53,549 bases of DNA from NCBI GenBank assembly GCA_028716485.1, contig JAQUPS010000009.1, positions 1 to 53,549 on the forward strand, given 5' to 3'. Below, in pieces: positions 1 through 51,770 of the stretch. Each line of letters starts with the position of its first letter. Positions within the stretch are counted from its first letter, which is position 1. Both the position numbers and the translations under genes were made by a program. Origin of the DNA: Patescibacteria group bacterium (lineage in GTDB: Bacteria; Patescibacteriota; Patescibacteriia; Patescibacteriales; WJLG01). The notes below the pieces were generated by a model that did no database searches, had not been told where the DNA came from, and worked only from the letters and a program-made list of their open reading frames with translations.

Positions 1-43
1 TTATCGCAATACAGGGGGCATGGAGTAATCATTTTTTGATAGT

Positions 44-1015
44 ATGCTGTATAGAAATATTTTAGAAAAACTGGGGAAGACACCAATGGTTAAAATAGAA
101 CCCAGGGATTTGGGGCAGATTAACTTGTATGCAAAGCTCGAGTTTTACAACCCAACTGGCAGCGTAAAAGATAGGGCGGCATTTCATATTTTAAAAAAGG
201 CTTTAAAATTAAATAAGATTAATAAAGACACATCCATAATAGAGTCTTCTTCCGGTAATTTTGGAGTTTCCTTGTCTGCTTATTGCAAGGAATTTGGGTT
301 AAAATTTTATTGTGTTGTTGATCCTCAGATTTGTACGGCTAATGAGTATCTCATAAAAACTTTAGGCGCGAAGATGGTTAAGGTGACAGAACCAGATGAA
401 AATGGCGGTTATTTGTTAAATAGAATAAAAAAAGTAAAAGAATTATTGAAAAAAATACCAAACTCTTATTGGGTTAACCAGTATCGAAATCCATATAATT
501 CCGAAGCATACAGGGAAACGCTGGGAAAAGAAATCTGCAACGAATTAGACGAAGTTGACTATGCTTTTCTGGGGGTAAGTTCCGGAGGCACCATTACGGG
601 CGTTTCGCAAAAAATTGCAGAGAAGTTTCCTATGGCAAAAATTATTGCCGTAGACATGGTCGGTTCGGTAATATTTGGAGGCCGGCCACAAAAAAGATAT
701 ATACCCGGTATCGGCTCGAGCATGGTTCCCGATATTCTAAAAGACGCTCATATAAACGAGGTTATTACAATAGATGAAGCTTCGACGATAGAAATGTGCC
801 ATGAACTGCTAAGAGAACATAATTTATTTATTGGTGGTTCGTCTGGTTCCGTTTTTTCTGCCGTTAAAAAATATTTTTCAGGTAAAAAATTTAAGAAAAA
901 ACCAAACGTTGTGGTTGTTTTTGCTGATAGGGGCGATAGGTATATAAATACAGTATATAATGAAGATTGGTGTGATAATTTTTGCCAAAATAATTTTAAA
1001 TTGAAAAAGCTATAA
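44..1015 (+). CDS. sbnA: SbnA-like PLP enzyme, N-(2-amino-2-carboxyethyl)-L-glutamate synthase
   Basis: Fold-type II PLP enzyme of the cysteine synthase superfamily, 323 residues, full length. The PLP lysine is K42 in NPTGSVKDR, the substrate loop is SSSGNFG (68-74), and the phosphate-binding loop is GVSSGGTITG near residue 178. SSSGN in place of the TSGNTG of CysK is typical of SbnA, which joins O-phospho-L-serine and L-glutamate. The SbnB-type gene starts 7 nt downstream, and this pairing is what distinguishes SbnA from ordinary cysteine synthase. The product would be the precursor of L-2,3-diaminopropionate. Cytoplasmic. No clear ribosome binding site. Substrate choice is inferred; a generic O-acetyl/phosphoserine sulfhydrylase is the main alternative. 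Confidence 0.8.
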   Translation: MLYRNILEKLGKTPMVKIEPRDLGQINLYAKLEFYNPTGSVKDRAAFHILKKALKLNKINKDTSIIESSSGNFGVSLSAYCKEFGLKFYCVVDPQICTANEYLIKTLGAKMVKVTEPDENGGYLLNRIKKVKELLKKIPNSYWVNQYRNPYNSEAYRETLGKEICNELDEVDYAFLGVSSGGTITGVSQKIAEKFPMAKIIAVDMVGSVIFGGRPQKRYIPGIGSSMVPDILKDAHINEVITIDEASTIEMCHELLREHNLFIGGSSGSVFSAVKKYFSGKKFKKKPNVVVVFADRGDRYINTVYNEDWCDNFCQNNFKLKKL

Positions 1016-1021
1016 TTTGCT

Positions 1022-1990
1022 ATGCTTTATTTAAATGAGGAAAATTTAAAATCCATCGGCACTAATTGGAGCGATACAATCAATGTTATTGAGGGCGCGG
1101 TGGTTTGCCTCCGCAATAATAATTATTCTCAGCCGATTAAGCCGTATTTGAGGTACGGCGATTTAAAAAACAGAATAATTGCTATGCCTGCTTACGTTGG
1201 TGGTAGTTTTAATGTGGCTGGCATAAAATGGATTGCAAGCTTTCCTGATAATATTAAGAAGGGAATTGCTAGGGCGAACAGCGTGGTTGTATTAAACAAT
1301 GCAGGCACGGGGGAGCCGATAGCTGTAATAAATACCGCTCTTTTAAGTATAATCAGAACAGCTTCTGTTAGTGGATTAATGATGAAATATTATAATAAAA
1401 AAAGAGATTTACAAAATTTTAATTTGGGAATAATTGGTTTTGGTCCGATAGGTCAGTATCATCTAAAAATGTTTATGAGCTTGTTTGGTAGTGAGATAAA
1501 GAAAGTTTTCTTGTATGACATAAATGGAATTGATAAAAAGGCCATAAATTGTGAGCATGAAGATAAGGTTACAGTAGTGGATAGCTGGGAGGATGCTTAT
1601 TCAGACTCCGATGTTTTAATAACCTGTACAGTTTCGAAAGATAGATATATCGATAAAAAACCAAAAAAGGGATCACTGCATTTAAATGTTTCTTTGCGGG
1701 ATTATAAAATTGACGTATTTGAGCATTTTAAAAATGCAATAATTGTTGATAATTGGGATGAAGTTTGCAGAGAAAATACTGATATAGAAATGATGAGTAA
1801 GGAAAATGGTTTAAAGAAGTCTGACGTAAAGGATATTGGAGATGTAGTTTGTAATAATTCTTTGGGGGTGATAGAATCTGGCCAAGCGGTAATGTTTAAT
1901 CCGATGGGAATGGGAATATTTGATATAGCGATTGGAAAATATTATTACGATCAAGCTATAGGCAAACAGGTCGGGAAGGACATGATGTAA
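1022..1990 (+). CDS. sbnB: SbnB-like dehydrogenase, forms L-2,3-diaminopropionate
   Basis: Ornithine cyclodeaminase/mu-crystallin family, 322 residues. The N-terminal half has the family signature GIKWIASFPDNIKKGIARA followed by VVLNNAGTGEPIAVI and IIRTASVSGL. The Rossmann nucleotide site is LGIIGFGPIGQYH near residue 137. SbnB oxidatively splits the SbnA product to L-2,3-diaminopropionate, 2-oxoglutarate and NADH. The tight coupling to the SbnA-like gene supports this role over ornithine cyclodeaminase or alanine dehydrogenase. There is no Shine-Dalgarno sequence; a TATAAT hexamer at 1011-1016 ends 5 nt before the ATG but has no good -35 partner. GC content is low like its neighbour. Confidence 0.8.
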   Translation: MLYLNEENLKSIGTNWSDTINVIEGAVVCLRNNNYSQPIKPYLRYGDLKNRIIAMPAYVGGSFNVAGIKWIASFPDNIKKGIARANSVVVLNNAGTGEPIAVINTALLSIIRTASVSGLMMKYYNKKRDLQNFNLGIIGFGPIGQYHLKMFMSLFGSEIKKVFLYDINGIDKKAINCEHEDKVTVVDSWEDAYSDSDVLITCTVSKDRYIDKKPKKGSLHLNVSLRDYKIDVFEHFKNAIIVDNWDEVCRENTDIEMMSKENGLKKSDVKDIGDVVCNNSLGVIESGQAVMFNPMGMGIFDIAIGKYYYDQAIGKQVGKDMM

Positions 1991-2054
1991 TTTAAAGTTC
2001 AACAAAAGTTAGTTAGTTCATTAACAATTATTTCAACCAAAAAGGAGAGTTAAG

Positions 2055-3059
2055 ATGAAAAAAGTATTAGTGTTGTACAATTTGGCGGAGAGGCTGGAGA
2101 AAGGCGTCCAAAGTGACCTGATTTGCGAGCAAGAAATCACGATCATTGTCCCCTTGGTTGTCGAGTTGCTTGTGAAGAAGGGTTATTATGTCGAGGCGCT
2201 TAAAACAGATCTGAACATATGGGAAGAGCTGAAGAAAAGAAGGGAAAGCTGTGACATTGTGTTTAATCTGGCCGAAGCTTTTGGTGGGGGGAATACAAAT
2301 GAAACGGTTATTCCGGCCATGCTTGAGGGGTTAAGAATGCCGTTTACAGGAGCTTCTTTGAGTAATATGAGTTTTACCTTAGATAAGGAAAAGACTAAAC
2401 TCGTTTTGGCTTCGTATGGAATTCCCGTGGCTCCCCACGTGTTATTCAGAACAGGACACGAAAAACTTAACAGCCTTGGTTTTCCCTTAATTGTAAAACC
2501 AGTTAGGGAGGAGGCTAGTATAGGTATTTATGGTGACTGTGTAGTTGATGATGAGGCAGGATTGCGCCGTAAAATTTTGCACTCACTGGATAAATACAAT
2601 CAACCAATTTTGGCTGAAAAATTTATTCAAGGAAGAGAAATTTCTGTCGGCGTAATAGGCAATGCTTCCAATCTTCATGTTTTCCATCCGCTCGAATTCC
2701 TCTTTGAAGGAGCAAAATCAGAAAGAGAAAAAATTCGATCTTATGAATACAAGTGGGGCGGAAAAAAGGAACAGATGGTTAAGGCCGATCTGCCATCAGA
2801 GATAGTCGGACGACTAGCAGAATATAGCAAGACTTGCTTTGAGGCTACCGATTGTCGTGATTATGCGAGAATGGATTATAGAATTGATCAGGAAAATAAG
2901 ATTTATCTTCTTGAGGTAAACTATAATCCAGGAATAGGTCCTAACTCTCACGGCTTGAACAATACCTTAACGAAAATGGCGAGTTTTGAAGGGTGTTCTT
3001 TTGAGGATTTGGTTGAGAAAATTATACTTATTGCAATGCAACGCTATGGCGTGGTATAA
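2055..3059 (+). CDS. D-alanine-D-alanine ligase-like ATP-grasp enzyme
   Basis: ATP-grasp ligase, 334 residues, close in length to Ddl. Visible motifs: FNLAEAFGGG with the helix leading to PFTGAS (Ddl-type N-terminal domain), the ATP lysine in FPLIVKPV, the ILAEKFIQGREISVG strand, and the metal-binding end YARMDYRID...LLEVNYNPGIGPNS. It starts after AAAAGGAGAG at 2041-2050, the only strong ribosome binding site in this gene group. Ddl makes D-Ala-D-Ala, but enzymes of this subfamily also condense other amino acids. Beside diaminopropionate and diaminobutyrate enzymes, a peptide ligase acting on those products is as likely as a cell-wall Ddl. Which of the two it is cannot be read from sequence alone. 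Confidence 0.75.
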   Translation: MKKVLVLYNLAERLEKGVQSDLICEQEITIIVPLVVELLVKKGYYVEALKTDLNIWEELKKRRESCDIVFNLAEAFGGGNTNETVIPAMLEGLRMPFTGASLSNMSFTLDKEKTKLVLASYGIPVAPHVLFRTGHEKLNSLGFPLIVKPVREEASIGIYGDCVVDDEAGLRRKILHSLDKYNQPILAEKFIQGREISVGVIGNASNLHVFHPLEFLFEGAKSEREKIRSYEYKWGGKKEQMVKADLPSEIVGRLAEYSKTCFEATDCRDYARMDYRIDQENKIYLLEVNYNPGIGPNSHGLNNTLTKMASFEGCSFEDLVEKIILIAMQRYGVV

Positions 3060-3083
3060 ATTAAGTATAATCTGGTTTATTTA

Positions 3084-3119
3084 TTGGGGGTGCGTTGATA
3101 ACAGTGCCCCCAATTTTTT
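3084..3119 (+). terminator. Hairpin plus U-tract between the two ATP-grasp genes
   Basis: TTGGGGGTGC pairs with GTGCCCCCAA (two wobbles) around a 10-nt loop and is followed by six T. The T-run ends only 6 nt before the next ATG at 3126, so it is either a terminator for the first part of the cluster or an attenuator that tunes the second part. No promoter is evident downstream of it. Confidence 0.75.
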
Positions 3120-3125
3120 AAAAAA

Positions 3126-4472
3126 ATGAAATACAAAATAATTATAATTGCAAATATTGCGGAAGCGTTTGAAGATGCTATAAGAAGGGTGAAATCTCAA
3201 AAAGAAAGAAATAAAAGGATTCGGATAGAACATAATCTTTGCGACCGGACTTTATTGTGGGAGGGTGATAATAAGGTTGTTGTAACGCCGTTCCCCATAT
3301 CTCCCGCGCTATTTGAAAAAAATCTTAAGGCACTTGGTTTTAAAAATTGTATAAATTTTTTTCCTGGAAAGGTTAATATTGGTTTATCGGATGCTATAAT
3401 TAAGGATAAGTCTTTGTTGAGCAATATTATTAAAGTTGTAAAGGATAATCCTGGCATTAGAATTTCCCCCTATGCGGTTACGCCACAATTTATAAAGCTC
3501 GTTGAGTTTTTAAGAGAAAAAAAACTTAAGTTTATTGTCGAGGAGATGCCCTGTGAAAATTCTAATTGGATCATACAATTTCTTGATTCAAAAATTGGAT
3601 CAAGGGCGGAGATAGATAAGATAAAGAGCAAGAATGTTTGTGCGCCTAAAAGTATTATTTGCAGGAATAAAATCGAGGCTATTGCTGTCGCTCAATGGTT
3701 TCATGAAAAAACTATTTCTTTTGTTGCTAAGGCTAATTTTGGTGAAGGCGGATGGGGGACGCTTATATTTAAGAAAGACGATCGCGGAACATGGAATAAA
3801 GCGATAATAAGGATGAAAAAGGAGTTAGTTGCGGATTCTATTTGGGATGACGGGCTGATAATTATAGAAGAATGTATAGTTGCAGACAGGGGGATTTCTA
3901 TCGGGTGTCCTTCCTCTGAACTGTATTTGTCAGAAAGAGGCCCGCAGATTACATATTTGTGTGATCAGGTTGTTACGGAAGAAGGAAATTTTTTAGGAGT
4001 TGCCTTGGGTAGGGATGCGTTGAATAAATCAGTAAAAGATAAAATAAACAAAGCTTCAATTATTGTGGGGCAGAAATTTTGGGAATTAGGTTATAGAGGA
4101 TTTTTTGATATTGATTTTGTGTTGTCTAATGAAAATAGAGTTCCCTATATTATCGAAACTAATATGCGCAGGACTGGTGGAACCCATATTTTTGATGTGG
4201 CAAATTCCGTTTTTGGTTCTGATTGGGAAGAAAAAGCATTTATTCTTTCAAGAGATTATTTTTGCTATGGAGAAAAAATATTGTCCGCAAAGGTTATTCT
4301 AGAAAAACTGAAAGAAATTTTATTTCCTATAAATAATAGCAAAAACGGATTGATAATATCCATAATTAACAAATGGCAACCATCCCTTGGTTTTATTATC
4401 ATTGGAAAATCTTCCAGCGAGGCGCTGGAAATGTATTCAAGAATGAATAAATTATTAAATATTAAAAATTAA
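3126..4472 (+). CDS. Second ATP-grasp ligase, divergent
   Basis: 448 residues. The N-terminal ~150 residues include LLWEGDNKVVVTPFPIS and resemble the pre-ATP-grasp region of peptide ligases. The ATP-grasp part is visible as SFVAKANFGEGGWGT (ATP lysine and glycine loop, ~205), LIIIEECIV (~247) and the metal-binding end FFDIDFVLSNEN..YIIETNMRRTGGTH (~330-355). It belongs to the carboxylate-amine ligase superfamily, with a substrate that cannot be named. It is not a paralogue duplicate of the upstream Ddl-like gene. The start has no Shine-Dalgarno sequence and follows a terminator-like hairpin. The low-GC composition matches sbnA and sbnB. Probable role: forming an amide or peptide bond on a diaminopropionate- or diaminobutyrate-containing product. 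Confidence 0.65.
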   Translation: MKYKIIIIANIAEAFEDAIRRVKSQKERNKRIRIEHNLCDRTLLWEGDNKVVVTPFPISPALFEKNLKALGFKNCINFFPGKVNIGLSDAIIKDKSLLSNIIKVVKDNPGIRISPYAVTPQFIKLVEFLREKKLKFIVEEMPCENSNWIIQFLDSKIGSRAEIDKIKSKNVCAPKSIICRNKIEAIAVAQWFHEKTISFVAKANFGEGGWGTLIFKKDDRGTWNKAIIRMKKELVADSIWDDGLIIIEECIVADRGISIGCPSSELYLSERGPQITYLCDQVVTEEGNFLGVALGRDALNKSVKDKINKASIIVGQKFWELGYRGFFDIDFVLSNENRVPYIIETNMRRTGGTHIFDVANSVFGSDWEEKAFILSRDYFCYGEKILSAKVILEKLKEILFPINNSKNGLIISIINKWQPSLGFIIIGKSSSEALEMYSRMNKLLNIKN

Positions 4473-4482
4473 CTATAAATAA

Positions 4483-4989
4483 ATGAATAAAACAATGCTT
4501 GAAGTTGAACCATTTCAAGAAACTTTAAATGCAGGAATGTGCGGTCCGGCCTCGCTTAAGATTTTGCTTTCTTATTACGGTGTAGAAAAGTCAGAGAAAG
4601 AACTTGCTAAATTGTGTAAAACTAAGAAGGATTTAGGCACAGATGATTTTGGGATTAAATCAGCGGCTGAAAAGCTTGGTTTTAAAGCGGTTATTAAAAA
4701 TAATAGTAGTTTTGCGGACATCGAATCGTGGTTGAAAAAAGATGTCCCAGTTATAGTTAACTGGTTTACTCGTGGCAGGTTGGATTATGGTGATTCAGAT
4801 GTCGCGGATGGTCACTATTCGGTTGTTTGCGGAATAGATAGTAAGTTTATTTATCTTCAAGATCCAGAAACGGGCAAGATGAGGAAGCTGGAAAAAGAAG
4901 ATTTTATGGCTGTTTGGTTTGATTTTACCGGTAAATATATTAAGTCAAATGAATTAATAATAAGGCAAATTATCGCTATATATAAATAG
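4483..4989 (+). CDS. Stand-alone C39-like cysteine peptidase
   Basis: 168 residues, no signal peptide or membrane segment. The papain-like C39 elements are complete: oxyanion glutamine Q12 in EPFQETLNAG, nucleophile C20 in GMCGPASLKILLSYYG, H111 in DGHYSVVCGID, and D127 in YLQDPETG. C39 domains usually sit at the N-terminus of bacteriocin ABC exporters and cut leader peptides after double glycine. This one is a free domain with no transporter or precursor peptide in view. Lying between a ligase and the aminotransferase (1 nt from the next gene), it could process, hydrolyse or transfer a peptide made by the ligases. The cytoplasmic location is inferred from the lack of a signal. Confidence 0.75.
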   Translation: MNKTMLEVEPFQETLNAGMCGPASLKILLSYYGVEKSEKELAKLCKTKKDLGTDDFGIKSAAEKLGFKAVIKNNSSFADIESWLKKDVPVIVNWFTRGRLDYGDSDVADGHYSVVCGIDSKFIYLQDPETGKMRKLEKEDFMAVWFDFTGKYIKSNELIIRQIIAIYK

Positions 4990-4990
4990 T

Positions 4991-6367
4991 ATGTTTGACG
5001 AGTATCATTTATTTGATGGTGTAAAAATAATAACTAAAAATATTCCTGGAAAAAAATCTAAGGAGCTTTTGAGTGCTCAGGATAAATTAGAAAGCCGAAA
5101 CAGATCTTATCCAAGGGGGATACCGATTGCCTATGAATCGGCTAAAGGCGCAATTATAAAAGATGTTGATGGTAACTTTTTTGTTGATTTTTTTTCTGGA
5201 TGCGGTGTTTTAAATTTTGGTTATAACAATCAGGATATTTTAAAAGAAATAAGCGAATCAACTAATTTTATCATGCACGCATTAGATTTTCCTACAAAGA
5301 TAAAAATTGATTTTATGAGGGGGCTTATTGAGTCAATGCCTGAGAATTTAAGGGGAAAATATAAAATAAGTTTTGGTGGTCCTACGGGCTCGGATGCGGT
5401 AGAAGCAGCAATAAAATTAGCAAGAATAAATACCGGCAGACACACTATTATTTCGTTTCAAGGTAGTTATCATGGCATGACCATGGGGGCGATGAGCGTT
5501 ACCAGCAAACTTTCCCATAGAGAAAAAGTTAATCCGCTTATTCCAGGGGTGCATTTTATGCCTTACAGTAGTTGCTATAGATGTGCCATGAGTAGAAATC
5601 CGAAAAGTTGCAATTTTGAGTGTGTTAGTTATTTAAAAAATGCTTTAGAAAATCCTCATTCCGGTATTGATAAGCCAGCAGCAATAATAATTGAGCCTAT
5701 TCAGGGGGAGGGTGGTACGTATATACCAAAAAAAGGTTGGTTGGAAAAAGTTGTCGAGATTGCTAGAGCGAACGGGATAATTGTAATATTTGACGAAGTT
5801 CAGGCTGGTTTTTATAGAACTGGTAAACTTTTTTCTTTTGAGCACACCAAGGCTATTCCTGATATCATAACCATGTCCAAGGGTGTTGGTGGTATAGGCA
5901 CACCCTTGTCTTTAATTTTGCTCAGGAAAGAATTGGATAAATGGGAGCCCGGAACTCACATCGGAACCTTTAGGGGAAATCAGCTCGGCATGGCCGCGGG
6001 ATTGTCGGCCTTAAAATTTATCAAGAAGATGAAAATTGAAGCATATGTTTCAAAAATGGAAAAATTATTTTTAAATAAATTAAGAGCTATTCAAAAATCA
6101 TCTAAATTTATCGGAGAAGTTCGTGGGAGGGGCATGATGTTTGGAGTTGAATACGTAAAAAATGCAACTACCAAAGAACCTTTTCCTGAAATGGCAAAAA
6201 AAATAAGAAAATTATGTTATGAAAATGGTTTGTTGGTTGAAATTGGAGGATATTATAACAATGTAGTGAGATTTTTGCCACCGTTAATAATAAGTGAAAA
6301 AATTGCTTTAAATGGGCTTGGCATATTTAAAACGGTAAACGATTTGGCGGGCAACAGGAAGCATTAA
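4991..6367 (+). CDS. Class III aminotransferase, diaminobutyrate-2-oxoglutarate type
   Basis: 458 residues. Fold-type I PLP enzyme: FGGPTGSDAVEAAIKLAR (cofactor phosphate), SYHGMTMGAMSVT, D268 in IFDEVQAGFYRTGK, the Schiff-base lysine K297 in TMSKGVGG, and GTHIGTFRGNQLGMAAG. The last motif and the cysteine stretch CYRCAMSRNPKSC..EC followed by PHSGIDKPAAIIIEPIQGEGG are typical of diaminobutyrate aminotransferases, which make L-2,4-diaminobutyrate from aspartate semialdehyde and glutamate. No diaminobutyrate decarboxylase or ectoine genes follow, so diaminobutyrate itself may be incorporated. The gene closes the operon-like run that starts at 44. Acetylornithine or 4-aminobutyrate aminotransferase is a weaker alternative. 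Confidence 0.75.
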   Translation: MFDEYHLFDGVKIITKNIPGKKSKELLSAQDKLESRNRSYPRGIPIAYESAKGAIIKDVDGNFFVDFFSGCGVLNFGYNNQDILKEISESTNFIMHALDFPTKIKIDFMRGLIESMPENLRGKYKISFGGPTGSDAVEAAIKLARINTGRHTIISFQGSYHGMTMGAMSVTSKLSHREKVNPLIPGVHFMPYSSCYRCAMSRNPKSCNFECVSYLKNALENPHSGIDKPAAIIIEPIQGEGGTYIPKKGWLEKVVEIARANGIIVIFDEVQAGFYRTGKLFSFEHTKAIPDIITMSKGVGGIGTPLSLILLRKELDKWEPGTHIGTFRGNQLGMAAGLSALKFIKKMKIEAYVSKMEKLFLNKLRAIQKSSKFIGEVRGRGMMFGVEYVKNATTKEPFPEMAKKIRKLCYENGLLVEIGGYYNNVVRFLPPLIISEKIALNGLGIFKTVNDLAGNRKH

Positions 6368-6418
6368 TTTTTTTTAGTTTCAGGATTGGATTTCGGCGTA
6401 AGAATAAATTTTAATTTT

Positions 6419-6439
6419 ACTGGAGGCAGGATTCGAACT
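6419..6439 (-). other. Possible tRNA 3'-end remnant (attachment-site scar)
   Basis: Read on the minus strand the sequence gives GTTCGAATCCTGCCTCCA, which looks like a tRNA T-loop, T-stem 3' strand and acceptor 3' strand. The bases 5' of it (AGAAA) do not complete the T-stem, and no anticodon or D-arm follows, so this is not a functional tRNA. A fragment starting in the T-loop is the usual scar of integration into a tRNA gene, and it lies just downstream of the AT-rich amino-acid ligase cluster. Chance similarity is possible. Confidence 0.3.
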
Positions 6440-6550
6440 TTCTCAGAGTAAAAATATTTTTAAAAAATTTAGCTAATATTAAATACGATATGTTAAAAAA
6501 GTTTTAAGAGACCGATTCCCGTTCGTATATGTTCGCGGGAGCACAGAAAA

Positions 6551-6577
6551 GACGAGAGTAAAATCTCGTTTTTTCTT
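6551..6577 (+). terminator. Rho-independent terminator after the ligase cluster
   Basis: ACGAGA pairs with TCTCGT over a GTAAAA loop, flanked by A-run and TTTTTTC, so it could act in both directions. A second weak hairpin (TCCCG/CGGGA) lies just upstream at about 6525-6542. The rest of 6368-6652 shows only the tRNA-like remnant. Confidence 0.75.
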
Positions 6578-6652
6578 TTATCTATCGATGGAGTTATTAT
6601 TAGCTATAATTAACATAGTGATTTCATTCTAAATTTAAACGGACAAAATTTT

Positions 6653-6681
6653 TTGACAGTAGAATCATGATTAGGTATAAT
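6653..6681 (+). promoter_or_regulatory. Perfect sigma70-type promoter
   Basis: TTGACA (6653-6658), 17-nt spacer, TATAAT (6676-6681), both hexamers fully consensus. It directs the exported protein at 6729 with a leader of about 40 nt and suggests high constitutive expression. Confidence 0.85.
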
Positions 6682-6728
6682 ATGATTAGAAGTTTAAAAA
6701 TTTTTTTTATAAACTAAATAACAAAAAA

Positions 6729-7505
6729 ATGAAAAGATTTTTAACTCTTGGAAGTGTTATCTTGACAATTCTTGCTGTTTTTTTTCTTGTCTCTTCTCCA
6801 CTTCCTGCGGTGGCAGCAAGTTCTTTAAATACGCCCGAACTTACAAACGTGAATCAGACAAGTGTTTCCGACAAGGTGTTAATTGTAAATGCTCCAACTT
6901 CAAAGTTAACTTCTGGCATGATGTCCGCTTCGGTGGTTCCTGCAGTCGCAATGATTACTATTTTTGCTGATCCTACCAATGGCGGAACCGGAAGTTCTGG
7001 CGGCAATGGCTCGACTTTTGGAACTCATGCTTTTATTACAGTGAAGAATATGTCCCAATCTAATATAAATATAGGAAGATTTTCAGGCATAGCACCGGGG
7101 AAAACCATGTCTATTGGGACGTGGGGAAATAAGTCTGAACACACCGGACTTTGGTACGACCTTGAATCGTATTTTGTTTATTACAATAGTGCTTATGCCG
7201 GTAGAGTTTCGGCTTCATATTTAATTACGGCGGCACAGCTCAACACCCTTAATTCTTATATTACAAATAATGACCGCTGGTCTTTAGCGACAAATTGTTC
7301 AAGTTTTGCCGCTGGAGCTTGGAATAGTGTTGTTGACCTTTCATATAGCCTGAGTGCCGGCATTCCGAATACTCCCAAAAATTTATCCAATAATATTAAA
7401 GCTAAATTTCCAGGTGCTCCAATAGGCGGATCGGTTCCTTACGATTATCTTGTTTATTATGCAAATGGCACGGGAGTCCCGGTAAGAAGTTCTATATATC
7501 GCTAA
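6729..7505 (+). CDS. Exported protein with a permuted papain-like (His-then-Cys) domain
   Basis: 258 residues with a clear signal peptide (basic start, hydrophobic core LTLGSVILTILAVFFLVSS, AVAAS cleavage region). The mature part has H100 in FGTHAFITVKN and C190 in ATNCSSFAAGAWNSV. His before Cys, each in its typical local setting, matches circularly permuted NlpC/P60-like folds (YiiX, LRAT and DUF4105 type) rather than classical NlpC/P60. Such proteins cleave or transfer acyl or amide groups on cell-wall or lipid substrates. The gene has its own consensus promoter and is followed after 21 nt by a small membrane-anchored protein. Enzyme activity is inferred. Confidence 0.6.
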   Translation: MKRFLTLGSVILTILAVFFLVSSPLPAVAASSLNTPELTNVNQTSVSDKVLIVNAPTSKLTSGMMSASVVPAVAMITIFADPTNGGTGSSGGNGSTFGTHAFITVKNMSQSNINIGRFSGIAPGKTMSIGTWGNKSEHTGLWYDLESYFVYYNSAYAGRVSASYLITAAQLNTLNSYITNNDRWSLATNCSSFAAGAWNSVVDLSYSLSAGIPNTPKNLSNNIKAKFPGAPIGGSVPYDYLVYYANGTGVPVRSSIYR

Positions 7506-7526
7506 ATGATTTTCAGGCAATAAGTT

Positions 7527-7922
7527 ATGAAAAAAATTATGTTGTATATTTTGATTATTATAATTTTTCTCGTTGTCGGCGTCGGGGGTTTTGTAATATT
7601 TAATATGACCCACTTTACTGTATCGCCAAGTATTGTTGCTATCCGTACGGTTGATGTGTCGCCGAAGACCATAAATATTTCCGGAGATTTTATGGCGAGT
7701 GCCGTATGGCAATCTGGATATAAAACGCAATATTCAGAAGATAATCTTTACATTAGAATAATTGGGAGCAATATAAATTATTATCATTTAAACGGTGGAG
7801 TCAGTCTTTCTATCCCTAATACATATCAGAATATAAAGGCGGTATATTTAGTAGGAGGTGAGGATGGCGGTATTATAATATGGCCGGATAATAAAACTTT
7901 GCGTCACCCACTCTCTAAATAA
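7527..7922 (+). CDS. Small membrane-anchored protein of unknown function
   Basis: 131 residues: an N-terminal hydrophobic segment (about residues 4-25) acting as signal or anchor, then a short extracytoplasmic domain ending in YLVGGEDGGIIIWPDNKT. No family recognised. It follows the exported papain-like protein closely and shares its low GC, so the two are probably co-transcribed. The region from 7923 to the hairpin at 8097 holds no convincing gene. Confidence 0.6.
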   Translation: MKKIMLYILIIIIFLVVGVGGFVIFNMTHFTVSPSIVAIRTVDVSPKTINISGDFMASAVWQSGYKTQYSEDNLYIRIIGSNINYYHLNGGVSLSIPNTYQNIKAVYLVGGEDGGIIIWPDNKTLRHPLSK

Positions 7923-8096
7923 TAATATTAATCGATTGGCTGCTAATGCTTTATTTCCAATAACTGATTTATCTGAGAAAGCATTAGTTTTGGGCAAGTT
8001 ACGTTCTCAAATACCCATTTCATACTTCGGAAATAGTGCCAGTTGGGGAGCATACACAGGTTTTGTGCTAAAGACCGTCAAGCTTAGCCAAAATAC

Positions 8097-8126
8097 AAAA
8101 GAACTCAGTGTAAACAGAGTTCTTTT
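8097..8126 (+). terminator. Rho-independent terminator
   Basis: AAAAGAACTC pairs with GAGTTCTTTT (10 bp) around a 10-nt loop. It closes the exported-protein operon before the methyltransferase gene. Confidence 0.75.
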
Positions 8127-8151
8127 GATTTAGTCAATAAGGAGAAAAACT

Positions 8152-8976
8152 ATGATTTTCCAAGGCGAAAAAATGTTTGACGCGTCATTTGATGTTTTTG
8201 CTAATAACTATAATGACGTTCGACCTGGGTATCCTATGCCGATGTATGAGGATGTCCAAAAAATCTGTAATATTTCCAATCAATCTTCCTTGTTGGAAAT
8301 CGGCGCTGGCAGCGGAATCGCCACAGTTGAGTTGGCCAAGATGGGTTGTAAAATTGTCGGGATTGAACCGGGAGCGAATCTGGTAGCAATCGCCAAACAG
8401 CAGACAGCGCAGTACAGTAATGTCGAAATCAGGGAGGCAATGTTTGAAAATTTTGAATCGGTTGAAAAATTCGATGTTGTCTTGGCCTTAACCTCTTTCC
8501 ATTGGATTAGCGAATACATGAAGTATAAGAAGGTTTTTGAGTCCATGAATGACGGCGGCAGCTTTGTTCTTGTTTGGAATAGTTTTTTCCAATCAAATTC
8601 TCCTGTTGCCCAAGAGGTGAATGCGGTTTACAAGGAAGTTCTTCCAGATGTCTATCCTTCGAGCGGCAAAGATGTAAATGCTTCGGTGCTGAGTAAATTG
8701 AATGGACGTGAAAAAGAAATTCACGACAGTGATTTATTCTACATTCATTTTTTGCGGAAGTATGTCACCCTCTGCAATTATGATGCCGAAACATACCCCA
8801 AGCTGCTTAATACTTTCCCAAAAATTATTAAGACGGATGAGAGGCGGCGGAAAGAATTTCTCTCAAGAATCGGCGAAGTTGTTAAGAAGTATGGAAAGAT
8901 ACCAATCCCGCTCCTGACAACTTTGATTATTTGCAAGAAAAAAGGCTTCTTTTTGAAATCAATCGGTGAACTATAG
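8152..8976 (+). CDS. Class I SAM-dependent methyltransferase
   Basis: 274 residues. Motif I is LLEIGAGSGIATVELA (about 44-59), followed by the acidic strand end IVGIEPG and the post-motif FDVVLALTSFHWI, all typical of the Methyltransf_11/25 group. The start is fixed by AAGGAG about 8 nt before the ATG. Substrate unknown; small-molecule methyltransferases of this length are common. It stands alone between two terminators, and its GC is between that of the AT-rich island and the rest of the window. Confidence 0.8.
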   Translation: MIFQGEKMFDASFDVFANNYNDVRPGYPMPMYEDVQKICNISNQSSLLEIGAGSGIATVELAKMGCKIVGIEPGANLVAIAKQQTAQYSNVEIREAMFENFESVEKFDVVLALTSFHWISEYMKYKKVFESMNDGGSFVLVWNSFFQSNSPVAQEVNAVYKEVLPDVYPSSGKDVNASVLSKLNGREKEIHDSDLFYIHFLRKYVTLCNYDAETYPKLLNTFPKIIKTDERRRKEFLSRIGEVVKKYGKIPIPLLTTLIICKKKGFFLKSIGEL

Positions 8977-9000
8977 CAAGCGATGGCGGTATGTATAACA

Positions 9001-9026
9001 AAACTGGACTTTTAGGCCGGTTTTTT
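9001..9026 (+). terminator. Rho-independent terminator after the methyltransferase
   Basis: AAACTGG pairs with CCGGTTT (one T-G wobble), followed by TTTTTT that merges into the -35 box of the guaB promoter. Confidence 0.65.
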
Positions 9027-9053
9027 GACTTTTTCAGGATATTATCATATATT
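9025..9053 (+). promoter_or_regulatory. guaB promoter
   Basis: TTGACT (9025-9030), 17-nt spacer, TATATT (9048-9053). The start point would be near 9060, giving a leader of about 50 nt to the ATG at 9112 and excluding upstream in-frame starts. Confidence 0.7.
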
Positions 9054-9111
9054 AAAGGGCTTGTGTTCTTTGACAATGAAATTAAACAATAACCTTTCAA
9101 AGGAGGATCAG

Positions 9112-10719
9112 ATGGTTGAGAAATTAGCGGGTAAGTTCAATCGAATGATTGAGATGCTTAGATCGATGATGGAATTTGTCGAACTTTCCGACGACGGGAT
9201 TAAGACCAAAATCAAGCGGAAGTGCGACAAATTTTTCCGCAAGATGACGTTCAAGGGCGAAGCGCTCGCTTATAACGATGTTCGGCTGCGGACTTGTCAT
9301 TCGGAGATTCTGCCCGGCGATGTCAGCTTAAAGATGAGGTTTTCGCGGAATGTAACGCTGAACATCCCGATCGTCAGTTCGCCGATGCGCGACGTAACCG
9401 AGTCGGCGATGGCGATTGCCATGGCTAAGCTCGGCGGGCTGGGAATCATCCATAAGAATCTATCGCCGGAAGATCAGGCCGCGGAAGTGAGGAAAGTTAA
9501 ACGCTGTTTAAGCGCTTTTCTTACCGAACCTGTTTGCATCCGTCCGGACGATACCGTGGAAAAAGTTTTAAAAATGAGAGAGAAAGAAAATCTCAAATTT
9601 TGGAGCTTTCCGGTAATTGATGAATCGGGAAAACTAATCGGCGTGGCTACCCGCAAGTATTTTGATTTTTGCCAGAACAATCAGCAAAGCATCGGAAAAA
9701 TAATTTCGCCGGAAGTGGTTTCCGCTCCGGAAGGAATTAAAATTGCCGAAGCTTATAAGATTATGATGGACAGAGGCATCAGGATACTTCCGGTTTTAAG
9801 CGGCACAGGAGAGCTTAAGGGAACTTACACCTTGGCCGACGTCAAGCGGATCATCCAGAATGATAAAGCTGATTACAATGTCGGCTCGGATGGCAGTTTA
9901 TTTGTCGGGGCCGCAATAAATGCCGGTATGAGCGATTTGGAAATCCGTCTGAGCCTTTTGCACCAAGCCAAAGTCGACGTCGTCGTTATTGACAGCGCGC
10001 ACGGCTGGTCGGAAGGCATCATCAAAGCTTTGAAATATTGCAAGAAGACTTACCCGAAGATCGATGCGGTCGCCGGAAATATTTCCGAAGCTGGCGCGGC
10101 AATCGATCTGGTCAGAGCCGGAGCGGATGGCATCAGGATCGGCCAGGGGCCGGGATCGATTTGCACGACGCGGATGATTGCCGGCATTGGCACGCCGCAA
10201 GTTACCGCTGTTTACAGTTGCGCCAAAGCATTGCGTGATGCGGATGTTCCTTCTTGCGCTGATGGCGGAATTGAATTGTCCGGCGATATCACTATCGCTT
10301 TGGCTGCCGGAGCCGCTAATGTGATGCTGGGCAAACTTTTGGCCGGCACTACGGAAAGTCCGGGCGAGATTATCCGATCGCCGGAGGGCGCGGCCTATAA
10401 GAATTATCGCGGCGAGGGATCGCTTGGCGCGATGATCGAGAACCGGGCCTGCCGCGAAAGGTATGGCCAGGCAGATAACGCCAAAGATAAATTAGTCCCC
10501 GAAGGAGTAGAAAGCACAGTTGATTATAAAGGCGATGTCGGAGTGATTATTTATCAATTGCTCGGCGGACTAAGGTCGGGAATGGGCTATCTGGGAGCGA
10601 AGGATATTCCGACGCTTCAGGAAAAAGCTGATTTTTATCAAATGTCATCGGCCGGCCTAAAGGAATCTCATCCGCACGGTCTGCAAACCATCAAGAAAGC
10701 GCCAAACTATAATATCTGA
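9112..10719 (+). CDS. guaB: Inosine-5'-monophosphate dehydrogenase
   Basis: Oxidises IMP to XMP with NAD, the first step to GMP. The start is set by AAAGGAGG at 9099-9106. The 535-residue product carries a charged ~60-residue N-terminal extension, the barrel start [11 protein letters not shown], then two CBS domains (from about 135 to 250), the NAD/IMP barrel with DSAHG and AVAGN, and the catalytic loop GPGSICTTR with C351. The active-site flap RGEGSLGAM and the downstream ARG-type YKGDVG segment are present. Family length is about 490, so the N-terminal extension is unusual. The purA-like gene starts 14 nt after its stop, forming a purine interconversion pair. Confidence 0.93.
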
Positions 10720-10733
10720 AGAAAGGGTTGCCT

Positions 10734-12269
10734 ATGAACAAGAACGGATTTTTGACCGAGAGGATTGCTAAGCTGACTAAAAATGTCAAAACTATGGCTG
10801 TCACTTGCCTGCAATGGGGAGATACGGGCAAAGGTAAAATTGTCGATTTATTTTCCGGCTGGGCGGACATTATTGTCCGCGGCACCGGCGGCGCCAATGC
10901 CGGACATACTATTGTCTTGGGATTGAAAAAGTTTATTTTTCATCTCATCCCATCGGGAATCCACTTTGACAAGGATGGCAAAGTTAATGCGATGGGCAGG
11001 GGAATGGCGATTGATCCGGAAATCTTCGTCAGCGAATTATCCTTGCTCGACAAGCAGAAGATCAGTTATGACAATCTGATTGTCGCCGGAAATGCCAATC
11101 TGACTTTGCCAGTCCATATTTTATTGGATTTGGCGAATGAAGGCGGCGGCAGTAAGGGAAAGATTGGCACGACGGGCAGGGGAATCGGCCCGACCTATGT
11201 TGATTTTTACGGACGGCGCGGGCTGACCATCAATGATTTGCTCAATAAGGATGTTTTTGCGATTAAGTTGAAACGCAATCTGGATTATAATCTGCGCGTC
11301 TTGCGCGGCTATGATCCGGTTATGCTGAAAGAGTTGCTGTTTAGCGAGCGGCTGAGCAAAGGAATTTATTATGATTCCCAAAATATCCTTAACATCGAGG
11401 CTATCGTCAGCAAGTATGTCGATGAGTATGGCAAAAGGCTGGGCGGATTGATTAGGGATGTGGATGCCTACATCATAAAAAATGCGGGCAAGAAAAAGAT
11501 CCTTTGCGAAGGCGCGCAAGGCCATAATTTGAGCATCCTGCACGGATCATATCCTTTTGTCACGCCTTCCGATTGCTCGCTGGACGGTTTGCTGGCCGGT
11601 TGCGGCTTGAACCGTTCATACCTTGACCTGGCTTTAGGAATCATAAAAGGTTTCTATATGACCAGAGTCGGCGATGGGCCGTTTCCGACCGAGTTAGGCG
11701 GAAAACTATCGGACGATTGGTGCGGCGGACGGAGCTCGGAAGGGAAAGTTGACCGCGCCAAGGAATTGGAAAAATATCCCGATGTTTCTGTCGATGATGA
11801 GGATGAATTTCGCCAGGGTATGGCTTTGCGCCGCGCGGGCGACGAATACGGCGCGACGACCGGGCGGCCGAGAAGAGTCGGCTGGCTGGATCTGCCGCTG
11901 TTGAAGTCCGCTCTGCGCTGGGCGACTAAGGATGCAGCGCTTACCAAGCTGGACGTGCTCAATGATGTAGAGGAAATCAAAATCTGTTATGCCTATGATT
12001 ATCAAGGCTCGGACTATCGCTATGGCGACAAGATCATCAGACGCGGCGACCATCTTTACGAGGCGATTCCCGCGGCTGAAGTCCTGCAATATTGCCAGCC
12101 GATCTACAATTCTTTTCCAGGCTGGCAGGGTAGCTTGGCGGGGGTTACTGATTATGACGGATTGCCCCGGCAACTAAGGGAGATTGTCGAATACGTCAGA
12201 AATCAAACCGACATCTTGCCGCGGATCATTTCCACTGGCGCTGATCGGGAAGAAACTATCTTTGTTTAA
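10734..12269 (+). CDS. purA: Adenylosuccinate synthetase, divergent
   Basis: Joins IMP and aspartate with GTP to adenylosuccinate. The ATG at 10734 follows GAAAGGG. The 511-residue product is longer than the usual ~430. Retained: the P-loop-like QWGDTGKGKIVD with the catalytic Asp, NAGHT, IGTTGRGIGP, EGAQG, EYGATTGRPRRVGW, TKLDVLND and the C-terminal ADREETI. Odd: the near-invariant Glu of GDEGKGK is Thr, TTAGG is replaced by CSLDG, and ~50 extra residues (SDDWCGGRSSEGK..) precede the GATTGR motif. Coupled to guaB. It is a true PurA relative, but substrate range could be altered. Confidence 0.88.
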   Translation: MNKNGFLTERIAKLTKNVKTMAVTCLQWGDTGKGKIVDLFSGWADIIVRGTGGANAGHTIVLGLKKFIFHLIPSGIHFDKDGKVNAMGRGMAIDPEIFVSELSLLDKQKISYDNLIVAGNANLTLPVHILLDLANEGGGSKGKIGTTGRGIGPTYVDFYGRRGLTINDLLNKDVFAIKLKRNLDYNLRVLRGYDPVMLKELLFSERLSKGIYYDSQNILNIEAIVSKYVDEYGKRLGGLIRDVDAYIIKNAGKKKILCEGAQGHNLSILHGSYPFVTPSDCSLDGLLAGCGLNRSYLDLALGIIKGFYMTRVGDGPFPTELGGKLSDDWCGGRSSEGKVDRAKELEKYPDVSVDDEDEFRQGMALRRAGDEYGATTGRPRRVGWLDLPLLKSALRWATKDAALTKLDVLNDVEEIKICYAYDYQGSDYRYGDKIIRRGDHLYEAIPAAEVLQYCQPIYNSFPGWQGSLAGVTDYDGLPRQLREIVEYVRNQTDILPRIISTGADREETIFV

Positions 12270-12290
12270 TTTCATTTATTTTCAAAATAA

Positions 12291-12316
12291 GCCGCTGAAA
12301 GAATCAGCGGCTTTTT
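12291..12316 (+). terminator. Rho-independent terminator after purA
   Basis: GCCGCTGA pairs with TCAGCGGC around AAGAA, followed by TTTTT. Confidence 0.9.
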
Positions 12317-12384
12317 AATTTACCGGCGAAGCGAACAATGGTATAATACGGATAGCGATTTATATTAAGCTAATTATTCATTAT

Positions 12385-13302
12385 ATGGCGAACAATTTGA
12401 AATATTCCGACGAAGAATTGATGAAAGTTTTGGAGATTGACGATAAAACATTAAATCGTTTTAAGGAAATCAGGGAGGCGACAATTGCCGAGGCTAAGAT
12501 GCGCGGCGAGAAGCGGACGGGCGAAATAAAAGTTTTGGGAATTTCCGGCTCGGCTCGCGATAAGAATGATATGGCGCAGGAGGATTCCAACACGGCTGAA
12601 CTGCTGAAACAAAGTTTGAAAGTCTGCGAGGACTTGGGCGCCAAGACCGAATTTATTTCTTTGCGCGAATATAATATCAAATATTGCAAGGCTTGTTATT
12701 CCACCGCCAACACCCAATGCCATTTTTACTGCTCCTGTTATCCGCGCGGCACGGAGCGGGAAGATGATATGAGCAAGATTATTTATGACAAGATTTTGGA
12801 CGCGGATGTGATCATTTTCGCCACGCCGGTGAATAATTTTAAAATTTCCACTTTGATGGCGGCGTTTCTTGACCGCTGTATTAGCCTGGACGGCAGTCTG
12901 CCGCCGGCCAATCCGGATTCGCCTAAAGATCGGGAACTAAATATCAAGCATACGAAATTCGTCCAAATGAACGTTGATTATGATGTGCCGGGCAGCGGAT
13001 TTTTGCGCCGTTTTTCCGGAAAAATCGGAGGGATAATTACCGCCGGGCACGAAGAGGGAACTTCGATGGCGATCAGCTGCCTGCTAATGACCTTGAGTCA
13101 TTTTGGCATGTTATTTCCGCCATTCTCCAATATGTACGCGATGTCTTCGGTTTGCAATCCCACTTATGCCGATAAAAAAATCGTCACGGGCAATTGTTTT
13201 AGCAAGGAAATCTATTCTCTCTCTTACAATGTCGTGCTGGCGGCAAAGTTAGCGCGGCAGGGGAGCGCGATGGATTGGAAAAGTGATATCAGCATTAATT
13301 AA
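12385..13302 (+). CDS. NADPH-dependent FMN reductase/flavodoxin-like protein
   Basis: 305 residues. The flavodoxin-like fold begins at KVLGISGSARDKN (about 52), the FMN phosphate loop, and continues with DADVIIFATPVNNFKIS and FSGKIGGIITAGHEEG. A cysteine-rich stretch KYCKACYSTANTQCHFYCSCYP (about 94-115) is inserted after the first beta-alpha unit, as in iron-sulfur flavoproteins. The N-terminal ~45 residues form a charged helix. A TATAAT at 12342-12347 gives a plausible promoter. The Cys-rich DUF2769 gene follows after 17 nt, suggesting a redox pair. Electron donor and acceptor unknown. Confidence 0.8.
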   Translation: MANNLKYSDEELMKVLEIDDKTLNRFKEIREATIAEAKMRGEKRTGEIKVLGISGSARDKNDMAQEDSNTAELLKQSLKVCEDLGAKTEFISLREYNIKYCKACYSTANTQCHFYCSCYPRGTEREDDMSKIIYDKILDADVIIFATPVNNFKISTLMAAFLDRCISLDGSLPPANPDSPKDRELNIKHTKFVQMNVDYDVPGSGFLRRFSGKIGGIITAGHEEGTSMAISCLLMTLSHFGMLFPPFSNMYAMSSVCNPTYADKKIVTGNCFSKEIYSLSYNVVLAAKLARQGSAMDWKSDISIN

Positions 13303-32450: not shown

Positions 32451-33012
32451 AATTTCAGGGCAAGCGGACAGCCGCTTTTTTCGGTTTTTATCGAAAAGGG
32501 AGGAAAGTCCGGACTTCTCCCGCACCTTTTAAGCAGAAGCGCTTCGCGCTGTCGATTAAGACGCTGAATTAAAACAGTGAATGCGTTTGATGCGAATTTT
32601 ATTTCTTTTTCAAAAAAGAACTGCTTAAAAGGTGCGGGATAAATGATGGTGGATAACGTCCACAAACCGCAAGGTTATGGAAAGCGCCACAGAGACAATA
32701 CTAATCAACGCTTCGCGTTGAAATTTTAAAATATCAATTTTAAAGTTTTGGCGCGGAGTGTTGGTGAAAGGTGAAAAGTTTCAAGACGTAAATATTAGTC
32801 GTTGGGATATCCTGATTAAAATTTACCACTTGATTCGCTCCCGAGCGATCGGGATGCGTGGCAAGCCCCATTTGAAGCAAGAGCAAACCTGATTCGCAAG
32901 AATCAGAGGAACGTGGCTCGCTTGAGCTTGGCAGTAATGCCAACGCCAGATTAATGGCTGTCCTTTGCCGCAAGGTAAAGACAGAATCCGGCTTATAGCT
33001 TGCCTTGAAATT
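32451..33012 (+). ncRNA. rnpB: RNase P RNA with a large extra stem-loop
   Basis: Catalytic RNA that trims tRNA 5' ends. P1 is formed by AATTTCAGGGCAAGC (32451) and GCTTGCCTTGAAATT (32998). Conserved cores are seen: GAGGAAAGTCCGGAC near 32500, GAAAGCGCCACAGAGACAATAC near 32679 (quoted in parts: GAAAGCGCC, ACAGAGACAA), the GGCAAGCCCCATTTGAAGCA segment near 32860, and the 3' ACAGAATCCGGCTTATAG. At about 562 nt it is far longer than the usual 350-400. Much of the excess is a stem closed by CCCGCACCTTTTAAGCAG (32519) and its complement (~32622-32639), enclosing about 85 nt. Protein frames across it are spurious. Ends are estimated from P1. Confidence 0.93.
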
Positions 33013-51504: not shown

Positions 51505-51656
51505 ATTCAACGATTATTTGGAATATTCTGTATTGATCGCATTTAGACATTTAATAATATTACTTTGGCTGCTTTTGATTTGACTTTTTCTTAAATACCT
51601 GATAAAGTGTGAATTACAATTTACTATAACCTAAACTTTATAAGAAATTATAAAGC

Positions 51657-51770
51657 ATGGCTAAAATCCACATACATAAAGACGGTCTCCTTGATCGGTT
51701 CTATGTATGTGGTCAATATTCGAAAGGATATTGGGTTCGCAAGGACCGCCGATCGGGAGACCTTTTTTGT
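51657..51770 (+). ncRNA. Candidate structured RNA: pseudoknot with two GNRA hairpins and U-tract
   Basis: Four helices fit in about 100 nt. Stem 1: CCACATACAT (51668) with ATGTATGTGG (51703). Stem 2: GGTCTCC-TT-GATCGG (51684-51698) with CCGATC-G-GGAGACC (51749-51762), its 5' strand lying in the loop of stem 1. Between the strands are CAATATTC-GAAA-GGATATTG (51714-51733) and GGTTC-GCAA-GGACC (51734-51747), both closed by GNRA tetraloops. TTTTTT follows at 51763. Stem 2 with the T-run is terminator-like, so stems 1 and 2 form a pseudoknot or exclude each other. No known RNA family recognised. A 45-codon frame (51657-51794, MAKIHIHKDGLLDRFYVCGQ at its start) runs through it without a ribosome site. 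Together with flanks, this accounts for the 328-nt gap after 51504; nothing else is seen there. Confidence 0.55.

Follow-up and report, generated by a model that had tools for sequence, protein, structure and literature searches.

A modular and probably mobile cassette of two ATP-grasp ligases and a C39 enzyme in Patescibacteria, with a candidate role in making small diamino-acid peptides

The stretch of DNA analyzed here (the window) is one complete contig of 53,549 bp from a patescibacterial genome (G000; 1.15 Mb in 28 contigs, 99.2% complete), and at one end it carries six open frames, all on the plus strand, which span positions 44-6367 with spacers of 6, 64, 66, 10 and 1 bp. Three of these genes, encoding two ATP-grasp ligases (DdlL and AG2) and a stand-alone C39 enzyme, form a core that recurs as a block among distant Patescibacteria, with genes for making diamino acids added in varied combinations. 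The cassette is real, conserved and modular, and it is probably mobile. We favor, with moderate confidence, the reading that it is a horizontally moved peptide-ligase cassette, free of nonribosomal peptide synthetases (NRPS), that makes a small basic diamino-acid peptide. An earlier note on this DNA had described six one-strand genes with short gaps in a patescibacterial genome; frame and model searches confirmed the coordinates and kinds of these genes, and the placement of the genome holds indirectly, by kinship to G314, a genome of the same phylum that agrees without a difference, over the 4 kb compared, with CP066688.1 (titled Candidatus Daviesbacteria). Since the cluster lies at the end of a complete contig, any genes 5' of SbnA are cut off. 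The features of the locus are as follows.

44-1015, plus strand: SbnA-type pyridoxal-phosphate enzyme (by TIGR03945)
1022-1990, plus strand: SbnB-type dehydrogenase (by TIGR03944)
2055-3059, plus strand: DdlL, Ddl-like ATP-grasp ligase, core gene 1 (by PF07478)
3083-3114, plus strand: terminator-like hairpin with a T run after it, in the spacer of the two ligase genes (by folding of 3055-3125)
3126-4472, plus strand: AG2, PGM1-like putative ATP-grasp peptide ligase, core gene 2 (by AlphaFold2 model and structure comparison)
4483-4989, plus strand: stand-alone C39 papain-fold enzyme, core gene 3 (by PF03412, catalytic residues and fold)
4991-6367, plus strand: class III aminotransferase of the diaminobutyrate--2-oxoglutarate family (by TIGR00709)
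6545-6576, plus strand: terminator-like site 3' of the aminotransferase, a possible cassette end (by terminator consensus scan)

Four aligned DdlL proteins served as the query for a pattern scan of 84,980 species, which returned 12 loci with a DdlL 60-79% identical to that of the window, a lower bound, as only stretches carrying two peptide patterns were tested. DdlL, AG2 and C39 are contiguous on one strand in 11 of them, and the contig of the twelfth (L062) stops inside AG2. The order is DdlL-AG2-C39 in nine of the contiguous loci and AG2-C39-DdlL in the other two. The record titles name Moraniibacteriota, Yanofskybacteria, Daviesbacteria (two), Staskawiczbacteria, Paceibacterota, Collierbacteria and Patescibacteria group, along with three entries titled 'bacterium' and one Victivallales metagenome-assembled genome. 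The last of these, L062, was considered as a cassette in Lentisphaerota and dropped, as its contig, only 3.7 kb long, is probably misbinned. Averaged over alignment columns, identity is 72% for DdlL (13 rows), 74% for C39 (12 rows) and 51% for AG2 (13 rows). What is conserved is the triple DdlL-AG2-C39; a maker of diamino acids may be present or absent, and one kind can replace another.

How rare the core is can be judged from 379 genomes drawn evenly from the phylum. A DdlL with at least 60% identity and an AG2 with at least 41% occurred in the same 2 of the 378 other genomes; loci L064 and L071 among the 12 are those of G279 and G314 from this search. AG2 relatives at 27-33% were present in eight further genomes, 16 genomes with weak AG2 matches (E 2.5e-10 or worse) having been dropped before the counts. 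SbnB matched in one of 98 genomes (G000 and 97 relatives), namely G000 itself. With AG2 as the query, nothing was found in viral contigs, genome contigs or phages, and the DdlL alignment likewise found nothing in viral contigs. Among the titles and abstract starts listed in searches of open-licence literature, none describes a DdlL-AG2-C39 cassette. Around the core, no conserved frame of at least 20 codons was seen within 2.5 kb in 14 loci, a search that shorter precursors could escape; the small-frame groups in these loci were known genes, antisense shadows, a tRNA region and isolated pairs near E 0.01. One shared frame pair, present on both strands and unexplained by known genes, was considered as a precursor peptide and proved to be the tRNA region. 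A scan of ten loci (without L064 and L071) for riboswitches or other RNA near the cassettes found only tRNAs.

The diamino-acid makers vary from locus to locus. A KamA-like radical S-adenosylmethionine enzyme accompanies the core in four of the 12 loci (L063, L065, L069, L072), a diaminobutyrate-type aminotransferase in two (L065, L072) and SbnA/SbnB in two (L062, L072); a 25%-identical aminotransferase beside L069 was excluded from the count of diaminobutyrate (Dab) modules. Because SbnA/SbnB and the aminotransferase are each confined to 2 of 12 loci, L-2,3-diaminopropionate (Dap) is better seen as an option than as the defining feature, and the supply of Dap and Dab as core function was dropped, their genes being found in a minority of loci. 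The expectation that all these genes are conserved together stands for the ligases and C39, which occur together in 11 of 11 uncut loci, and falls for SbnA/SbnB and the aminotransferase. None of the five KamA-like proteins passed TIGR03820 (204.7 to 421.8 bits vs. 525.4). This was still the top-scoring model for four of them, AblA_like_2 being the top for that of L072, all under those cut-offs, and the broader KamA model TIGR00238 was passed by two (L063, L003). The aspartates at positions 293 and 330 of 2a5h, which we take to hold the lysine side-chain amine, are kept in all five. For each of the three module kinds, the predicted product is a diamino acid.

A conjugative plasmid of Thioflavicoccus mobilis carries relatives of AG2 (27.5%) and DdlL (38.5%) together with KamA, SbnA, SbnB and an aminotransferase. 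In the SbnB tree, the window groups with L062 and Paenibacillus (support 98/96), and L072 falls with Bandiella, Deefgea and Janthinobacterium into a five-row group (100/99) that includes the long-branched plasmid row. The window, L065 and L072 have aminotransferases that share 62-66% identity with one another and 31-33% with the plasmid copy; the latter scores best with PRK09264 and EctB models, the other three with PRK06938. Judged from such sequence comparisons, the modules are of different descent. In the plasmid collection, the SbnB closest to that of the window (44%) is from L105 of Paenibacillus cellulosilyticus. There, at 7995-12535, SbnA and SbnB are followed by what looks by eye like an asparagine synthase-like protein, perhaps another Dap amide cluster.

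In the window itself, SbnA passes TIGR03945 with 397.6 bits (NCBIfam cut-off 349.95), the best cysteine synthase model reaching 215.6 bits, under its own cut-off of 344.15. SbnB passes TIGR03944 narrowly (331.2 bits vs. 326.9), and the best ornithine cyclodeaminase-type model reaches 120.2. The two genes are adjacent, both lie over curated cut-offs, and both score higher with these models than with those for cysteine synthase or ornithine cyclodeaminase, the comparison on which the earlier note had staked the SbnA/SbnB assignment. The predicted SbnA-type enzyme would presumably turn O-phospho-L-serine and L-glutamate into a Dap precursor, from which the predicted SbnB-type dehydrogenase would, as we assume, free L-2,3-diaminopropionate. 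The aminotransferase passes TIGR00709 (441.5 bits vs. 401.6) and stays under the cut-off of the EctB model TIGR02407 (383.4 bits vs. 552.2). No adenylation domain was found among the six genes. The earlier claims of a diaminopropionate-type enzyme pair and of an NRPS-free ligase cluster are supported.

The two ligases differ in how well they fit known families. DdlL passes PF07478 with 107.6 bits (Pfam cut-off 24) and lies under the cut-offs of the Ddl models, the best 25 of 41 having been compared (PRK01372, 149.8 vs. 243; TIGR01205, 141 vs. 245.65). Its C-terminal motif NYNPGIGPNxHGLNNT is invariant except at x in 13 rows, the plasmid row differing at one more place, and the aligned Ddl sequence is shorter than this motif and unlike it. 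AG2 gave sub-cut-off matches only: the Pfam pre-ATP-grasp domain PF18604 reached 19.3 against 27.5, and four NCBIfam matches were also under. Its AlphaFold2 model, with a predicted local distance difference test score (pLDDT) of 90.5, superposes over near full length on PGM1 of the pheganomycin pathway (3wvq; Z 36.1, root-mean-square deviation 2.9, 408 residues aligned), followed by a Streptomyces peptide ligase (8ynd, Z 34.4) and BesA (Z 31.8), with the next group at 25.7. As modeled, AG2 is structurally PGM1-like. The likeness to PGM1 and BesA is one of fold; AG2 is 16-18% identical to them, the neighboring genes differ, and no ribosomal peptide gene was found near the cassette among frames of at least 20 codons.

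Distant relatives of the ligases occur in other settings. In G104 (L041), a 29% relative of AG2 adjoins a peptidase of family S58, a Ddl-like ligase (28%) and a gene resembling AstE/carboxypeptidase, so that ligases again stand beside peptidases, of other families. In G116 (L037), a KamA-like gene lies just upstream of two tandem distant AG2 relatives and a SET-domain gene. The Agrobacterium plasmid pAtA74a_b (L004) carries a 24% AG2 relative near quorum-sensing genes, a LysA-like decarboxylase, a 2-oxoglutarate oxygenase, a creatininase-family gene and a MATE exporter. After Thioflavicoccus, the next plasmid relatives of DdlL are rhizobial ATP-grasp genes, 32-37% identical over four fifths of the protein, and the cassette neighbors are absent at the two such loci examined.

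The third core protein passes PF03412 with 59.6 bits (Pfam cut-off 22) and is a stand-alone protein of 168 amino acids in which no signal peptide was seen by eye. Residues Q12, C20, H111 and D127 are invariant in 12 of 12 rows. The fold of its model (pLDDT 79.1) matches ComA/PCAT leader peptidases with Z up to 18.6, PeiR with 16.4 and phytochelatin synthase with 13.2. By sequence profile, its nearest relative with a solved structure is PeiR, a pseudomurein endoisopeptidase (E 8.5e-11). Such papain-fold matches fit hydrolysis and transfer alike. CtaG of Ruminiclostridium cellulolyticum, which presumably acts in closthioamide biosynthesis, shares the C39/papain-like fold (Foldseek E 1.4e-4), more weakly than the peptidase domains do. 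Eight other genomes among the 379 carry C39 relatives that are 55-72% identical, with ligases adjacent in two only, and the idea of a ligase-specific C39 was dropped, as solo copies exist. Cassette and solo copies are interspersed in the tree, with 5 label changes, at least 3 of them forced by supported branches; shuffled labels gave a mean of 7.0 changes, and 64 of 500 shuffles were as low. Among plasmids, C39 matched 180 records, all below 60%; the 20 matches listed are 28-35% identical and mostly ABC exporters. A C39 protein fused to or beside an ABC exporter was not found among the six window genes. The solo loci (L126-L132) belong to six genomes of the phylum; G235 carries two such copies, and a tandem pair of Ddl-like genes lies about 2 kb away from one of these.

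Base composition and gene context point to mobility. The cassette genes of the window have a GC content of 0.360, and of 0.326 at third codon positions (GC3); the corresponding averages over 21 other window genes are 0.453 and 0.514. In five of nine testable loci, the cassette edge has a tRNA gene (Trp, Pro, Asn, Arg or Ser) within 250 bp, the contigs of L062, L072, L073 and the window ending near the cassette and being left out of this test. Random placement in the same flanks gave five tRNA-near loci in 1 of 20,000 trials, with the 250-bp limit chosen post hoc. Just 3' of the aminotransferase, at 6421-6437 on the minus strand, is a 17-base stretch resembling a tRNA 3' end, the sole match in the genome with at most one mismatch. 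It was considered as the mark of an integration site and dropped, as about one such match per genome is expected by a rough estimate.

We propose the following mechanism for the cassette. DdlL, whose sequence including the predicted acceptor region is near-constant, would perform one constant step, most likely the formation of a dipeptide or the coupling of a partner that does not vary. AG2, which varies more than the other two proteins and is of the PGM1/BesA type, would add or receive the variable residue, which would be a diamino acid: Dap, Dab, beta-lysine, or lysine or ornithine where a module is absent. Both ligases would act via acyl-phosphates, as in the two-ligase phosphonoalamide pathway, and C39 would then act on the product, be it by hydrolysis, by transfer or in self-protection. 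The module of the window would consist of SbnA/SbnB (for Dap) and the aminotransferase, and the product would be a small basic peptide. Conservation and co-occurrence suggest which of the ligases takes the diamino acid, and we infer this division of labor because a constant ligase, a variable ligase and an exchangeable maker resemble the phosphonoalamide pathway. There, as excerpts of the report describe, dipeptides are formed by one ATP-grasp enzyme, and another couples them with a special amino acid (PMC11867202). A more speculative extension, to which we give little credence, is that DdlL and AG2 build short isopeptide-linked oligomers of the module-supplied diamino acid, that C39 trims them or protects against them, and that Patescibacteria use them on hosts or competitors; it is raised because the monomer list (Dap, Dab, beta-lysine, lysine) is that of the cationic homo-polyamino acids.

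The bacterium is probably host-dependent. Patescibacteria are described, in the excerpted text, as having no known pathways for making amino acids, and gene clusters for biosynthesis as uncommon in streamlined genomes (PMC12455944). If the proposed peptide product is real, a ligase cassette spread across many lineages with cartridge-like makers would offer a testable route to a product of cell-host interaction. The core spans about 3 kb and can hence be made and assayed in vitro, and the exchange of modules is a natural experiment that can show which of the ligases recognizes the diamino acid.

A number of observations weigh against a mobile cassette for a diamino-acid peptide. Seven of the 12 loci show no diamino-acid gene, though L070 and L073 are short of contig, and no transporter is among the genes that recur with the core. 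The cassette on the Thioflavicoccus plasmid has no annotated or matched C39, and C39 occurs without the ligases in six of the 378 other sampled genomes. The SbnA tree does not repeat the picture of the SbnB tree: in it, L072 forms a group (97/97) with the plasmid and Paenibacillus, and no well-supported group contains the window. The low-GC tract outruns the cassette, as the two genes directly downstream also have low GC3 (0.313, 0.318), and in six of nine other loci with more than 1 kb of flank, cassette and flank agree in GC within 0.04, the difference being larger in L068, L070 and L071. The 66-bp spacer between DdlL and AG2 holds the hairpin at 3083-3114, with a minimum free energy of -19.4 kcal/mol and a z of -2.84 when the 71-base stretch 3055-3125 is folded. 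This hairpin is not among the sites from the terminator consensus scan, which permits loops of 3-8; since it separates the two ligase genes, the six genes are perhaps not a single transcript. The enzyme activities of the cassette proteins are, moreover, predictions from sequence.

The supply of precursors tells against it as well. Aspartate-semialdehyde dehydrogenase (PF02774) was found in none of seven genomes and homoserine dehydrogenase (PF00742) in none of four, G000 being included in both sets, with 14 of 14 controls positive for each. No SerC-like gene was found in G000, whose two PF00266 proteins are NifS-like and PseC-like, both under the cut-offs of those models. The phosphoserine supply expected from SerC is thus not seen in G000, and other phosphoserine sources may exist. 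Because these three genes were not found, the precursors of Dab and Dap would come from the host or from an unrecognized route, or the aminotransferase acts otherwise. The earlier idea of a product containing both Dap and Dab is weakened by the same results.

Other functions have to be weighed against the small basic peptide, and the cell wall is one of them. DdlL might substitute for an absent D-Ala-D-Ala ligase, or DdlL and AG2 might make a diamino-acid peptidoglycan stem or bridge that C39 trims. By PF07478, DdlL is the sole Ddl-type ligase in both G000 and G314 (one contig, 99% complete), which keeps a wall role alive and counts against the peptide product; the second, weaker PF07478 match of G000 scores best with cyanophycin synthetase and GshB-type models, under their cut-offs. 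Mur-ligase matches number six in G000 and three in G314, two loci have peptidoglycan genes nearby (PBP1-type and SLT in G279, a sub-cut-off M23 match in G314), and the kinship of C39 to PeiR fits the same role. However, DdlL falls below the cut-off of the best Ddl model and ends in a C-terminal motif unlike that of Ddl. In addition, 168 of the 379 phylum genomes gave no match to a DdlL single-sequence query, so that many of them may manage without a gene of this type. A wall role would also hardly account for the rarity of the cassette, the exchange of Dap, Dab and beta-lysine modules or the relatives on a gammaproteobacterial plasmid, and we regard it as improbable. Similarly unlikely is a route like that of ribosomally synthesized and post-translationally modified peptides (RiPPs), in which AG2, as PGM1, would join a diamino acid to a ribosomal peptide and C39 would be the leader peptidase. 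The best structural matches of C39 are indeed leader-peptidase domains (Z 18.6 down to 16.4), and graspetide loci are reported, in part of the source, from the Candidate Phyla Radiation; yet neither a conserved small frame near the core in the 14 loci compared nor an ABC exporter among the six genes was found, and BesA, structurally almost as close to AG2 as PGM1, is by name an amino-acid ligase.

Instead of taking part in biosynthesis, C39 could confer resistance, as a hydrolase that breaks the product down within the producing cell, with the solo copies shielding non-producers. We see in this a possible though doubtful explanation, the least improbable of the alternatives. The interspersed solo copies at 55-72% in six other genomes fit such a role, as does the place of C39 next to the ligases in every uncut locus. 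The label test is indecisive, however, the solo copies could equally have a general peptidase role, and the plasmid cassette lacks a C39. A known Dap pathway, either a siderophore of the staphyloferrin B type or a dapdiamide cluster, is very improbable even with an SbnA/SbnB pair over both curated cut-offs: within the six genes, to which the search was confined, there is no IucA/IucC synthetase, adenylation domain or dioxygenase, and in three other loci examined IucA/IucC genes do come after SbnA/SbnB. The dapdiamide-type ddaG cluster of Pantoea vagans (L149) shares an SbnA/SbnB-type pair and an ATP-grasp gene with the window and additionally has NRPS-like, dioxygenase (TauD), ddaG and asparagine-synthase genes. 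Its ATP-grasp protein shows no meaningful similarity to DdlL (E 0.019) and none to AG2, and the dapdiamide likeness that the earlier note had drawn for the ligases does not hold.

Among the systems compared, the cassette is a new variant of ATP-grasp peptide-ligase clusters. The phosphonoalamide pathway (PnaB, PnaC; PMC11867202) likewise pairs two ATP-grasp ligases with a nonproteinogenic amino acid that the cluster itself provides; that amino acid is a different one, the excerpts mention no C39 or diamino-acid modules, and the likeness drawn here is one of pathway logic. ATP-grasp ligases with genes for diaminobutyrate transaminase, cysteine synthase and ornithine cyclodeaminase in variable combinations had already been noted (PMC2922099). 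As far as excerpts of that paper go, those predicted peptide operons are centered on a paralogous methionyl-tRNA synthetase with cupin and lysine monooxygenase genes, which are absent here, and Patescibacteria, C39 and aminomutase are not mentioned. Cationic homo-polyamino acid synthetases of the epsilon-poly-lysine type use the same monomers (Dap, Dab, lysine, and also beta-lysine, in which case a lysine 2,3-aminomutase lies adjacent) and are, in the excerpted text, NRPS-like enzymes with a membrane domain (PMC10522769). Here there are ATP-grasp ligases only, and an adenylation-carrier-membrane enzyme of that kind was not found in a search confined to the six genes. The azetidine-carboxylate clusters of the Candidate Phyla Radiation are likewise rare, horizontally spread and found in reduced genomes, with ATP-grasp neighbors in a figure legend (PMC11794875). 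They carry an azetidine-carboxylate synthase for a different amino acid, and the parts of that report at hand mention no Dap, Dab or beta-lysine genes. Overall, the interpretation of the earlier note is partly supported, and the mobility and modularity of the core go beyond it.

The remainder of the window displays a few further features. Within positions 1-9100, nine terminator-like sites were found against 6.4 expected by shuffling, which makes the site at 6545-6576 weak on its own. A 12/12 match to a sigma-70 promoter precedes a 258-amino-acid protein (together at 6653-7505), which by eye resembles a secreted protein and matches nothing in Pfam or NCBIfam. At 9025-12269, an IMP-dehydrogenase-like gene (475.6 bits vs. 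a cut-off of 481.5) is followed by an adenylosuccinate synthase-like gene, recognized by eye; the former has matches in two of eight other genomes searched and none in the same-genus genome. A frame of 522 amino acids on the minus strand (13671-15239), without a Pfam match at E 1e-5, has the top GC (0.536) among the genes sampled. RNase P lies at 32456-33011, and a LOOT RNA match at 51628-51747 scores 81.2 bits, over the gathering score of 46.4.

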